Source: Nitrospira sp. (lineage in GTDB: Bacteria; Nitrospirota; Nitrospiria; Nitrospirales; Nitrospiraceae). Taken from it: 64,000 nt of DNA. A program made the translations under genes and the position numbers. Positions 1-2,868 of this stretch are shown piece by piece (the stretch's first letter is position 1; each line of letters starts with the position of its first letter). The notes beneath the pieces were generated by a model. That model was not told the DNA's origin. It worked only from the letters and a program-made list of their open reading frames with translations, and searched no databases. The stretch covers positions 1 through 64,000 of the forward strand of contig JAJONL010000011.1 of NCBI GenBank assembly GCA_021323395.1, written 5' to 3'.

Positions 1-1
1 G

Positions 2-70
2 GCGATCTTCTGGCTCGGCGGGTTTGCCGTGGGCCTGATCATCAAACTGATTCTGCCTCAGAATCACTGA
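2..70 (+). CDS. C-terminal end of a small membrane protein (partial)
   Basis: The window opens inside a reading frame that ends with TGA at 68-70. The 22 visible residues are strongly hydrophobic (AIFWLGGFAVGLIIKLILPQNH broken at P19) and would form one membrane helix followed by a short polar tail. It lies 73 bases upstream of the phage-type coat gene in the same direction, so it may be another small virion or assembly protein of the same element. The N-terminus is outside the window and the family cannot be identified from this tail. Confidence 0.45.
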   Translation, partial: AIFWLGGFAVGLIIKLILPQNH

Positions 71-143
71 GGCGCTCGTCCGTCGGCGAGGGTTCCGGCG
101 GCGCGGGTGGACGAGTCCACCAGATAGCACAAGGAGGTGCTCT

Positions 144-359
144 ATGAAGGGTGCGGGATGGGTGAAGGGACTCACGGGGTTCCTGACGGCGTTGGTCTTC
201 GCCTTGGGCGTGCCGGCGCTGTCGTTTGCACAGTTGTTTCCGGTCTCAGCAGATGTGGCCACGGTGCGGGCCGATCTGCTTTTGTGGGCAGCGGCCCTGA
301 TTGGGGTGGCGTTGGCCATCTATGCGTTTAAACGCGTGAAGGCGATTGTGGGCGGGTAA
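144..359 (+). CDS. Putative major coat protein of a filamentous phage (inovirus pVIII-like)
   Basis: This 71-residue protein has the layout of inovirus major coat proteins. Residues 1-29 form a signal peptide with a basic start, a hydrophobic core and a cleavage site after SFA (A29). The mature 42 residues have an acidic, amphipathic start (D37, D44), one membrane helix (about 45-62) and a basic end (K63, R64, K66). Mature coat proteins of Ff, Pf1 and Pf3 have this acid-hydrophobic-basic plan and similar size. The start is set by AAGGAGG at 130-136. A strong hairpin terminator follows directly, as after gene VIII in Ff phages. Another frame (137-331) is a shadow. The assignment rests on architecture, not on a database match; a small secreted pilin-like or unrelated membrane peptide remains possible. 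Confidence 0.6.
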   Translation: MKGAGWVKGLTGFLTALVFALGVPALSFAQLFPVSADVATVRADLLLWAAALIGVALAIYAFKRVKAIVGG

Positions 360-368
360 GGCCCAGCG

Positions 369-398
369 AGGCAGGCTGGCAGCAGCCTGCCTCCTTTT
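369..398 (+). terminator. Rho-independent-type terminator after the coat gene
   Basis: A perfect 10-bp stem (AGGCAGGCTG at 369-378, CAGCCTGCCT at 383-392) with a GCAG loop is followed by CCTTTT. It starts 10 bases after the coat stop codon. In filamentous phages a strong central terminator follows the major coat gene, which fits the reading of the upstream gene. Confidence 0.7.
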
Positions 399-415
399 CC
401 GAAACACATCACAAA

Positions 416-529
416 ATGAGAGTGGCAGAGGATGCGTTAGCGACCGACCTCGTCGCCTGGGGGACGGCCGCGATCGGGCTCGCGCTCGTGGCCGCAGGGG
501 CGGCTTGGGTGTTGCGGCTGCTGCGCTAA
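416..529 (+). CDS. Tiny single-helix membrane protein (37 aa)
   Basis: ATG at 416 opens 37 codons ending with TAA at 527-529. The product has a short acidic start (residues E5, D6, D11), a continuous alanine/leucine/glycine-rich helix (about 13-34) and a basic end (R34, R37). Size and charge plan resemble minor coat proteins such as pVII or pIX of inoviruses, and it follows the coat gene and its terminator in the same direction. No clear Shine-Dalgarno sequence is seen (only CACAAA before the ATG). Its stop overlaps the stop of the convergent radC-like gene by four bases. The function is inferred from size, topology and position only. Confidence 0.4.
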   Translation: MRVAEDALATDLVAWGTAAIGLALVAAGAAWVLRLLR

Positions 530-1029
530 GCGCCGGGCCAGCCCTGATCGGCGAAGCTGTAGTAGCGTTCTTCGGCGAGGATGAGATGATCCAGCAACGG
601 AATGCCGAACAGATCTCCAGCGTCGCGCAGTCGCTTGGTCAGGACGCGATCTTCGGGACTCGGCGTAATATCGCCGGATGGATGGTTGTGGCCGCAAATC
701 CAGGCGCCGGCATTCATGAGGATGAGGGGTTTGAAGACCTCACGGGGATGCACAATGGCCAAGGTGAGCGAGCCAGTCGAGACCACATTGATGCCGATGA
801 GCCCATGCTTCGCGTCCAGGCCGCAGACCAGGAACTGTTCCCGGTCCAACCCGGCAAACAGCGGCCGGAAAATCGCGGCAGCGGCGTCCGACGTGTGTAC
901 GGATTCCGCAGCCGGAATGGCACGGCCCTCGCGCACAAGCGTGACGCGGTACCGAGGGACACCGTATTTCCGAACCGGGTTCATTGGCCGTACACCGTTC
1001 GAGGAACCGAGAGAGCTGTCAACGGACAT
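526..1029 (-). CDS. RadC-type JAB domain protein
   Basis: This 167-residue protein carries the JAMM metal-binding signature of the RadC family: H114-N-H116 followed by S124 and D127 (HxHx7Sx2D), with the surrounding CGHNHPSGD typical of RadC. It covers only the JAB domain and lacks the N-terminal helix-hairpin-helix part of chromosomal RadC, as usual for copies carried by integrative elements and prophages. The biochemical role of these short versions is not settled; they are annotated as putative DNA-repair or metallo-isopeptidase-like proteins. The start at 1029 is supported by AAGGAGG six to seven bases upstream. It is convergent with the tiny membrane gene and divergent from the HTH gene, and probably belongs to the element integrated at the tRNA-Lys gene. 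Confidence 0.8.
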   Translation of the reverse strand: MSVDSSLGSSNGVRPMNPVRKYGVPRYRVTLVREGRAIPAAESVHTSDAAAAIFRPLFAGLDREQFLVCGLDAKHGLIGINVVSTGSLTLAIVHPREVFKPLILMNAGAWICGHNHPSGDITPSPEDRVLTKRLRDAGDLFGIPLLDHLILAEERYYSFADQGWPGA

Positions 1030-1057
1030 GTCCGCCTCCTTCTGAAATTATGTTCTA

Positions 1058-1087
1058 GCCCCACCCTTCACAAACCAAGGGTGGGGC
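1058..1087. repeat. Perfect 11-bp inverted repeat between divergent element genes
   Basis: GCCCCACCCTT (1058-1068) and AAGGGTGGGGC (1077-1087) form a perfect stem with an 8-base loop, 28 bases upstream of the radC-like start. No T-run follows on either strand, so it is not a typical terminator. It could be an operator, a transcript leader structure or a replication/packaging hairpin of the element. Confidence 0.55.
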
Positions 1088-1269
1088 GTAGAAGAAGAGG
1101 CGGCACGGGGCTCTCGCAGCGGGCAGGCCTGGAGGGGGCGGAGACCGGCACGGAGGGGACCGGGAAGGCCTGGCCCACTGCTCTCCAGCCACGGGTCGTA
1201 CCCACTGGGGGCTCACTCTTCGACCCAAGCCGGACAGCACAGAGGCGTTTCAGTGAGAGCGGGAAAAGA

Positions 1270-1551
1270 ATGAATCAAGAAGAGCAAGCGAACGCGACTC
1301 TAGAGATCATGACCCTGGCCGAAGCGGCGATCTATCTGCGCGTGTCGAAATCCACGCTGTATCAGCGGAAGGATATTCCGAGGCATCGCATGCCAGGATC
1401 ACGAGAAGTCAGATTTCTCAAAGACGAGCTGATCGCATGGTTGAAAAGTGGTGAGGGAGCAGCGCTGCCGGCCGCGTCTCGCGGGCTGGTTTTCCCACTA
1501 GACAGCGCCCCTGCCACTGTTTACCATCGGAACCCAAAATATCGGGGATGA
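1270..1551 (+). CDS. AlpA/excisionase-like helix-turn-helix protein
   Basis: The 93-residue product begins at ATG 1270 and contains a MerR/excisionase-type winged HTH near residues 11-60: a TLAEAAIYLRVSKSTLY helix pair, then basic residues and FLKDELIAWL. Such proteins act as recombination directionality factors or as transcription regulators of prophages and integrative elements. The reading frame is open far upstream (to 346), but those 300 codons lie over the antisense of the radC-like gene and are not credible. The gene ends three bases before the recombinase start, so the two are almost certainly cotranscribed, as is usual for excisionase-integrase pairs. No good Shine-Dalgarno sequence is visible (GGGAAAAGA directly before the ATG may serve). 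Confidence 0.75.
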   Translation: MNQEEQANATLEIMTLAEAAIYLRVSKSTLYQRKDIPRHRMPGSREVRFLKDELIAWLKSGEGAALPAASRGLVFPLDSAPATVYHRNPKYRG

Positions 1552-1554
1552 CTC

Positions 1555-2868
1555 ATGGCCTATACGATCACCAAGCGACGCACGAACAAAGGTCTCGCCT
1601 TTGATCTCTATTTCCGGTGGAAGGGTCAACGCTATCGCCCCTTGTTGGGCTATGACCTCTCACCCGACCAAGCACAACAGTCTGCCATCGAACTCATTCA
1701 CAAAATTCAAACGCAAGAGGTCGAGAAACCCCGTTCGCTCATGACCCTCCACGATGTCCTCCCCTTGTATTGGCAGGCGTTCGAAGTCAAAAAGCGGATC
1801 GATCGCACGCGGCCTGAAGGGATTCTCGAAAATCACATTCTTTCCTGCCATACATGCGTGAAGAGTGATCTCTCCTGTAGTCATCGGTTTGGGCATCAGC
1901 CGCTCGCTTCACTTCGACCAGAAGATGGGCTCAGATATGTGAAGGCCCGGCTAGACGAAGGAGCGACCGCCGGCACGGTCCGTCGTGAATGGCAGGTCCT
2001 CAATCGAATTCTCAATGTGGCCGTGCGCTACGAGAAACTGGACAGAAACCCGCTGAAGCATGTCGAACTGCCCGATGCAGATAAACGAACCAGAATCGCA
2101 GAGCCAGGAGAACTGTCTCTCATTAGCACGATGCGAGAGAACGATCCCACTAAGCTCGAATGCCGGCAAGAGCTCTGGCGGATTATTCAGGTGGCGGTCT
2201 CGGTGGGCCTGCGAGAAGGGAAAATTCTGGAGATCGAACGTTCGTGGGTGAAGAAGCGAGAGGATGGATACTGGTTGTGTCTCCCGCCCGCCGCAAGCCG
2301 TATCAAAGGAACCCCGCAAGAAGTGCCGCTGAACCGAACGGCCATGCTTGCGCTAGGGGCTGAGGTCCCTTCGCTCGCCGATGGTCGGGTGTTTCGCCGT
2401 TGGACTCACCAGCGGGCATTTAAGGAATACTGGAGTGAGACCTGTCGCCGGGTGGGGATTCACGATCTGCATTTTCACGACCTGCGACATACCTTCGCGA
2501 CCAGATTGCAGCGTATTGGTGTGGATTACGAAGTCCGTCAGGCACTCCTTGGCCATCGCATGCCCGGCATGACCGCGAACTATTCCCATGGGGGCCCGGA
2601 GTGGGATCGAAAGCTGAGATTAGCTGTGGAAGGACTCGAAAGAGCCTATCCGTTGTCCTATGGATTGTCCTATGAGGCTAAGGCGGCAGTGGGGCAAACT
2701 GCAGAAGTCATTGATTTGAATGGTGAGTCGGCTGGGATTCGAACCCAGGACCCTCGCCTTAAAAGGGCGATGCTCTACCAGCTGAGCTACCGACTCTCCC
2801 GCACACAGGGCCAATACATTCTCACATACTCACATGGGGATCGTGACGGAGGGGGATCATACCACTGA
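1555..2868 (+). CDS. int: Tyrosine recombinase (integrase) running into tRNA-Lys
   Basis: This 437-residue phage-type tyrosine recombinase would catalyse integration and excision of the element. The catalytic set is visible: R220 in GLREGK, K251, H308-x-L-R311, H334 in LLGH and Y343 in NYSHG. An Arm-type N-terminus and core-binding domain precede it. The core-binding part contains an unusual cluster C98-x2-C101-x6-C108-x-H110 that could bind zinc. Everything after residue about 388 is encoded by the antisense strand of the tRNA-Lys gene and the flanking chromosome, so the present C-terminus was created by integration. The gene starts three bases after the HTH gene. Base composition appears slightly lower in GC than the host genes to the right. 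Confidence 0.9.
   Translation: MAYTITKRRTNKGLAFDLYFRWKGQRYRPLLGYDLSPDQAQQSAIELIHKIQTQEVEKPRSLMTLHDVLPLYWQAFEVKKRIDRTRPEGILENHILSCHTCVKSDLSCSHRFGHQPLASLRPEDGLRYVKARLDEGATAGTVRREWQVLNRILNVAVRYEKLDRNPLKHVELPDADKRTRIAEPGELSLISTMRENDPTKLECRQELWRIIQVAVSVGLREGKILEIERSWVKKREDGYWLCLPPAASRIKGTPQEVPLNRTAMLALGAEVPSLADGRVFRRWTHQRAFKEYWSETCRRVGIHDLHFHDLRHTFATRLQRIGVDYEVRQALLGHRMPGMTANYSHGGPEWDRKLRLAVEGLERAYPLSYGLSYEAKAAVGQTAEVIDLNGESAGIRTQDPRLKRAMLYQLSYRLSRTQGQYILTYSHGDRDGGGSYH
2721..2796 (-). tRNA. tRNA-Lys (UUU), integration target
   Basis: The minus strand folds into a complete tRNA: acceptor GAGTCGG (2790-2796) pairs with CCGACTC (2725-2731), discriminator A at 2724 and encoded CCA at 2721-2723. The anticodon loop CTTTTAA gives anticodon TTT, for lysine. 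The T loop is the standard TTCGAAT. The 3' end faces the integrase, the usual arrangement when an element has inserted in the 3' part of a tRNA gene and restored it. It overlaps the end of the integrase frame in antisense. Confidence 0.95.

Follow-up and report, generated by a model that had tools for sequence, protein, structure and literature searches.

An inovirus-type phage block at a Nitrospira tRNA-Lys gene, likely the end of a cargo-carrying island

Inovirus genomes are usually ~5–15 kb as stated by Roux et al. 2019 (PMC6813254), and the Pf prophages of Pseudomonas aeruginosa, inoviruses integrated at tRNA genes, have accessory modules of which KKP is an example (PMC11341870). The stretch of DNA analyzed here comprises 64,000 nucleotides of Nitrospira sp. 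(assembly GCA_021323395.1, contig JAJONL010000011.1, positions 1 to 64,000; hereafter, the window), the left edge of which likely represents the right-hand terminus of an inovirus-type element that is integrated in the Nitrospira genome and forms the phage part of a cargo island. The Nitrospira elements share with inoviruses (Inoviridae/Tubulavirales): (i) a Zot/pI ATPase, a Rep_trans initiator and a single-stranded DNA (ssDNA)-binding protein (SSB), (ii) putative pIII/pVI-like minor coat proteins (with a DUF2523 match slightly under the cut-off) and a short candidate coat protein with a signal peptide, and (iii) a terminator, a structured intergenic region and recombinase-mediated integration at tRNA genes. 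By contrast with inoviruses, the coat candidate of these elements is encoded downstream of Zot and not upstream of pIII, a RadC gene is conserved on the opposite strand, and the integrated unit is 11.7–33 kb instead of ~5–15 kb.

The likeness to Pf prophages includes a tyrosine integrase at one end beside a tRNA gene and accessory defense genes inside the element. Unlike Pf, the Nitrospira elements use tyrosine and serine recombinases in alternation, and their cargo amounts to 4–26 kb, with entire restriction-modification systems, RHS proteins or a cobalamin cluster among its contents. The copies of tRNA ends at the left and right attachment (att) sites (attL and attR), the swappable recombinase and the defense cargo are held in common with tRNA-integrated islands and phage satellites, from which the Nitrospira units differ by a complete-looking filamentous-phage gene set. 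Judged by protein comparison, no described phage is close to the Nitrospira elements: the best matches to named phages are distant (Zot, 25–33% identity; Rep, 20–28%), the coat candidate has no match among named phages, and no close relative by coat or Zot protein is found among IMG/VR viral contigs. A preliminary description of the window had held that filamentous phages of this bacterial group are little described; the literature searched yielded no paper on a filamentous phage or inovirus of Nitrospira. The main text of Roux et al. 2019 (PMC6813254) leaves Nitrospira unmentioned, while its supplementary tables may hold such sequences.

Window base 1 is the start of the source contig, making leftward reading impossible in the source genome; hence, the search for phage genes to the left was moved to relatives. 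A shared block is found at about 35 loci, of which L063 and L064 belong to different genera of the same family, in the order helix-turn-helix (HTH), Rep, SSB, pIII-like, pVI-like, Zot/pI, 27-residue protein, 71-residue protein, terminator, 42-residue protein and, on the opposite strand, RadC. In L025, from a Nitrospira defluvii metagenome-assembled genome (MAG), the order is HTH, Rep_trans, an 87-residue protein, a 24-residue membrane protein, a 422-residue secreted protein, a 91-residue pVI-like protein, a 28-residue protein, Zot, a 27-residue membrane protein, the 71-residue protein, the terminator, a 42-residue membrane protein, RadC (minus strand), HTH and recombinase. The preliminary description, which proposed an inovirus prophage, would place a Zot-like ATPase and a replication initiator within about 15 kb to the left of the coat gene, and relatives have both. 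The Zot/pI ATPase of L025 (PF05707, 7.9e-30; PHROG 197 'Zot-like', 2.6e-45) lies ~160 bp upstream of the 71-residue protein gene and is also encoded in the other relatives whose block could be read. The Rep_trans initiator (PF02486, 1.2e-36), with a start ~4.3 kb upstream of the same gene, is a distant match to inovirus replication proteins. By sequence, the 87-residue SSB has only a weak PHROG match; its AlphaFold model (predicted local distance difference test score, pLDDT, 93) has the OB strand order and finds SSB proteins as its best PDB matches (E ~1e-4). DUF2523 is a frequent annotation of inovirus pVI-like proteins, and the 91-residue protein scores 20.5 bits against this family, slightly under the cut-off of 22.1. 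The putative pIII-like protein has a signal sequence, Thr/Pro-rich linkers and a C-terminal transmembrane segment and matches no family. With the exception of the left HTH, every core gene shows a nonsynonymous to synonymous rate ratio (dN/dS) of 0.05–0.09, which indicates purifying selection. Given this gene content, an inovirus identity of the element is nearly certain.

The left HTH gene (L025 5380–5664 and homologs) diverges much faster than its neighbors (dN/dS 0.35), as would be expected for an immunity repressor among co-resident elements.

The coat module at the left edge of the window (Table 1) agrees with the preliminary description, which noted a 71-residue protein with a signal peptide, acidic start, one helix and basic tail, a strong terminator 3' of its gene and tiny membrane proteins on both sides. 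By hydropathy, and not by SignalP, the 71-residue protein is predicted to have an N-terminal signal peptide with likely cleavage between SFA and Q, leaving a mature part of ~42 residues from Q30. Of the first 15 residues of the mature part, two are acidic; a single hydrophobic segment follows, and the K/R-rich tail has three basic residues among the final 12. Across 35 elements, the signal peptide varies and the mature part is almost invariant, even between genera, a pattern that is expected of a major coat protein. Homologs are encoded in 22 of 101 related genomes, with up to 5 per genome, and relatives occur at 18 loci of the genome collection, almost all of which bear a Nitrospira label. 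Neither Pfam nor PHROG searches matched the protein; a pilin or conjugation-element identity, which would have spoken against an inovirus, was set aside as no such family matched. The gene has a dN/dS of ~0.08 and, considering this value and the spread of homologs, the coat module is far above chance expectation. The 71-residue protein is a candidate major coat of the virion. Of the flanking membrane proteins, the 27-residue homolog is 95% identical to that of L025 and is kept between Zot and the coat gene in all relatives, while the 37-residue protein is 76% identical to the 42-residue protein of L025, the relatives being 42 residues long.

The intergenic region of ~170 bp between RadC and the integration cassette is conserved across 26 aligned elements, and the alignment ends where the cassette begins. 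Folded as single-stranded DNA, the region beats 200 of 200 shuffles (z -3.7); across the entire structure, just three pairs have compensatory changes and, thus, the covariation support is weak. Its hairpin occurs 29 times in 61 genomes, once per element and beside an element in every comparable case, with 0 control matches. Satellites signaled by solitary hairpins were considered and rejected, with 0 stand-alone copies among the 61 genomes. By position and structure, the intergenic region is a candidate origin of replication and packaging signal.

Table 1. Features of the left part of the window (positions in nucleotides of the window; aa, amino acids)
Feature	Position	Strand	Basis or remark
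C-terminal part of 27-aa single-span membrane protein (s27)	2..70	+	cut by contig edge
Shine-Dalgarno AAGGAGG of 71-aa gene	131..137	+	sequence
71-aa candidate major coat protein	144..359	+	conservation, hydropathy, no database family
Strong intrinsic terminator	~368..398	+	-26.5 kcal/mol, z -3.9, T-rich tail
37-aa membrane protein, homolog of conserved 42-aa protein 3' of terminator	416..529	+	single hydrophobic segment
RadC-like JAB-domain protein, 167 aa, convergent with 37-aa gene	526..1029	-	PF04002 1e-38
Conserved structured intergenic region, candidate replication origin/packaging signal	1030..1200		alignment, DNA fold, consensus pairs
Hairpin 1	1056-1089		nearly invariant 11-bp hairpin
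Hairpin 2, imperfect, longer	~1115-1182		consensus pairs
HTH_17 excisionase-like protein, in swappable integration cassette	1270..1551	+	PF12728 1.2e-9; PHROG 66 excisionase/regulator 3e-8
Tyrosine recombinase, IntK type	1555..2868	+	PF00589 3e-16; PHROG 1 integrase 6e-37
tRNA-Lys(ttt)	2721..2796	-	ARAGORN
attR core	2721-2768		3' end of tRNA-Lys; copies at distance in relatives mark attL

The units in relatives are laid out as attL with a recombinase arm, cargo, phage block, intergenic region, recombinase and attR within the tRNA gene, with the phage block and recombinase always at the right end and the cargo at the left. The phage block and integration cassette alone are ~7–8 kb. A left att copy within 2.5–5 kb of the phage block was found in only one relative, L030, at a distance of 4.3 kb upstream of the block in a unit of 11.7 kb. 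A search of the tRNA-Lys site in relatives gave copies of its 3' end (45–51 bp) some 22–37 kb away; those at 21–32 kb correspond to attL. Both att ends, which are copies of tRNA 3' (or 5') ends, are mapped for 14 units of 11.7–33.2 kb. Besides L030, these reside at tRNA-Phe (14.4 kb in G018; 29.9 kb in G004), tRNA-Ala (16.6–16.7 kb in G022 and G006, with a serine recombinase and 12–13 bp core; 20.5 kb in G018), tRNA-Arg (17.7 kb in G042, with 42 bp of the 5' end; 21.7 kb in G040), tRNA-Lys (21.5 kb in G007; 24.4 kb in G025; 29.2 kb in G004 and G015; 32.0 kb in G006) and tRNA-Ser (33.2 kb in G015). Only L030 and L049 (14.4 kb) fall within the usual inovirus range of ~5–15 kb, and the other 12 of the 14 units are 16.6–33.2 kb; genome size is a descriptive trait of inoviruses and not a strictly defining one. 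The Pf prophages are much smaller than the Nitrospira units. Empty sites at tRNA-Lys (G001) and tRNA-Ala (G008) agree with the mapped borders, and the tRNA-Ser pair is mostly spaced by 1.1–2.5 kb in empty genomes compared to 34.6 kb in G015. By its tRNA-end direct repeats, adjoining recombinase and the empty sites of relatives, the element is identified as a tRNA-integrated mobile island. Of the prophage that was proposed to continue to the left, the inovirus gene set is borne out in relatives; there, the element appears to be not a plain prophage of 6–9 kb but the phage-bearing end of a much larger cargo island.

The window holds only the right end of its own element (bases 1–2768). As the preliminary description had observed, an HTH protein and a tyrosine recombinase adjoin tRNA-Lys, on which PF12728, PF00589 and ARAGORN all agree. 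Integrases 91–93% identical to that of the window use the same tRNA-Lys in L032, L051, L052 and L059. Since L051 (24.4 kb unit) and L052 (21.5 kb) have this recombinase type and use this tRNA site, the element of the window is likely of similar size.

The cargo, located left of the phage block, is variable. In L057 it includes a type IIG restriction-methylase, a PLD-SNF2 helicase, an AIPR/AbiU-like protein and two Tle1-like hydrolases; in L034, a type III restriction enzyme and methylase with HerA-like and DrmD-like proteins; in L051, LmuB-like (Lamassu-like), HmaA-like and HmaC-like proteins; and in L049, a cytosine methylase and a helicase. Large RHS/YD proteins are encoded in L055, L056, L063 and L064. 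The cargo of L025 is a cobalamin cluster with CbiD, CbiG, three TP-methylase proteins, a CbiA-type amidotransferase, CobO, NicO and a TonB receptor. The cluster (G015:C4, ~9.5–27.3 kb; L144, L145, L025) lies inside the att sites of the tRNA-Ser island. A second CbiD is encoded elsewhere in the L025 genome. CbiD occurs in just 6 of the 61 genomes, and the cluster is patchy in the genus.

Based on this organization, the recombinase is proposed to excise the whole unit as a circle. Rep would nick the intergenic region to generate single strands that are coated by SSB, and Zot/pI would extrude these strands with the 71-residue protein as the major coat. The particle would infect another Nitrospira, where the recombinase would insert the unit at the same tRNA. 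In this model, the genes of the filamentous phage act as a transfer module for a cargo of defense, RHS and B12 genes. That virions package the full island is a tentative proposal, with somewhat less than an even chance of being correct. A similarly guarded view is taken of its broader form, in which islands of 14–33 kb are packaged as ssDNA in virions several micrometers long and large defense, RHS and vitamin B12 gene clusters are generally carried by a filamentous phage. Nitrospira are key nitrifiers, the elements are common among them, and defense systems, RHS proteins and a cobalamin cluster appear to be moved between species by these elements. If whole islands are packaged, filamentous phages would provide a route for large gene transfer at about twice the accepted size range, and a filamentous phage may move far more DNA than known phages of its kind carry. 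Whole-island packaging is directly testable in enrichment cultures.

A small, separate inovirus may have inserted in or beside older islands at the same tRNA, with cargo and phage normally traveling apart; tandem units occur at the tRNA sites, which are insertion hot spots, known inoviruses are 5–15 kb, and L055 and L060 share core and flanks with completely different cargo. Such an insertion would leave an att copy at each junction, yet no mapped island has one separating its cargo from the phage block. In tandem units (L026, L060, L051) the middle copy is visible, which argues that the islands are single units. Arm-type repeats of the recombinase are detected at both ends for four integrase types (e.g., TTTAGCACAAATTTAGCACA at attL+175 and attR-78), placing the left copies at the far left end, and the left arms are homologous, up to the start of the cargo, among islands with the same recombinase. 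Furthermore, an island of 29,260 bp in G004 and G015 is 99.976% identical over its length, with attL and the tRNA-Lys end as limits, compared to 73.9% identity in the right flank; thus, the whole piece moved recently, and at least one unit is seen by this comparison to have passed between species intact. A separately traveling phage is, on this evidence, decidedly improbable, and it is very likely that the whole island is a single mobile unit. The left att of L025 is only 23 bp, and an older second insertion may be present there.

In another reading, only the phage block is replicated and packaged, through nicking at two origins, with the cargo moved rarely or by other means; CTX-type phages work in this manner, and the virion would stay in the known size range. 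By contrast, no repeat of the intergenic region was found left of the block in relatives and the hairpin is single per element. A two-origin model was rejected on the missing left copy; a small CTX-like product is not suggested, and a whole-island circle is the simplest product. Packaging of the block alone is accordingly considered unlikely, with perhaps a minor chance of being correct. Alternatively, the block may be domesticated or helper-dependent and form no infectious filaments of its own, given that no secretin (pIV) gene is recognized in the block gene list and that a conserved RadC without an assigned role is present, into which three elements have an insert of ~2.5 kb. Many inoviruses use a host secretin, however, and Rep, SSB, coat and intergenic region are conserved under purifying selection, while activity is suggested by recent transfer and by the several variants per genome, which occupy many tRNA genes; a domesticated or helper-dependent block is, thus, very unlikely. 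Several points weigh against an active, island-sized inovirus. No virion, excision or circle has been observed. Packaging of 14–33 kb would exceed the ~5–15 kb range of inoviruses (PMC6813254). The source assembly lacks the left part of the element in the window, and Zot and a complete Rep are on no other contig of the source assembly, an absence that is not counter-evidence since the contig breaks exactly there. The structure model of the pIII-like protein is uninformative (pLDDT 34), and no arm repeats were found for two tyrosine types, the IntK of the window and the G040 type. In addition, the first unit of L026 has a related integrase at the same tRNA-Lys and no inovirus genes and, thus, integrase islands may exist independently of phage genes.

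The open reading frame of the window recombinase continues through the tRNA gene. Recombinase frames that enter or cross the att site are likewise noted in L025, L049, L051–L053, L055, L056 and L060, and represent four types: those at tRNA-Lys, tRNA-Ser and tRNA-Phe, and the serine recombinase at tRNA-Ala. The C-terminal tail of these enzymes would, therefore, not be the same in the predicted circle as in the integrated element. The remaining recombinase types end just short of the att core.

The RadC-like gene is missing from the feature list of the preliminary description and is present in nearly all readable relatives (dN/dS 0.087). The elements with a split RadC are L052, L058 and L039; the insert of L052 encodes a 503-residue protein that, by look, may resemble a group II intron reverse transcriptase.

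Assemblies are broken inside the phage block at window base 1 and in G028:C431, probably because the block is multi-copy and nearly identical there; MAG-based prophage surveys may, thus, miss such elements. The source genome also has a decayed second element (L046; G000:C25 17580–18112), of which a copy of the tRNA-Lys 3' end, the tail of an integrase and part of a Rep gene, broken by three TGA stops, are left. Beside an element at tRNA-Arg (L029 8271, L035 14128, L050 1991), another Rep of only 50% identity is encoded together with an integrase of its own, which suggests a neighboring second inovirus lineage.
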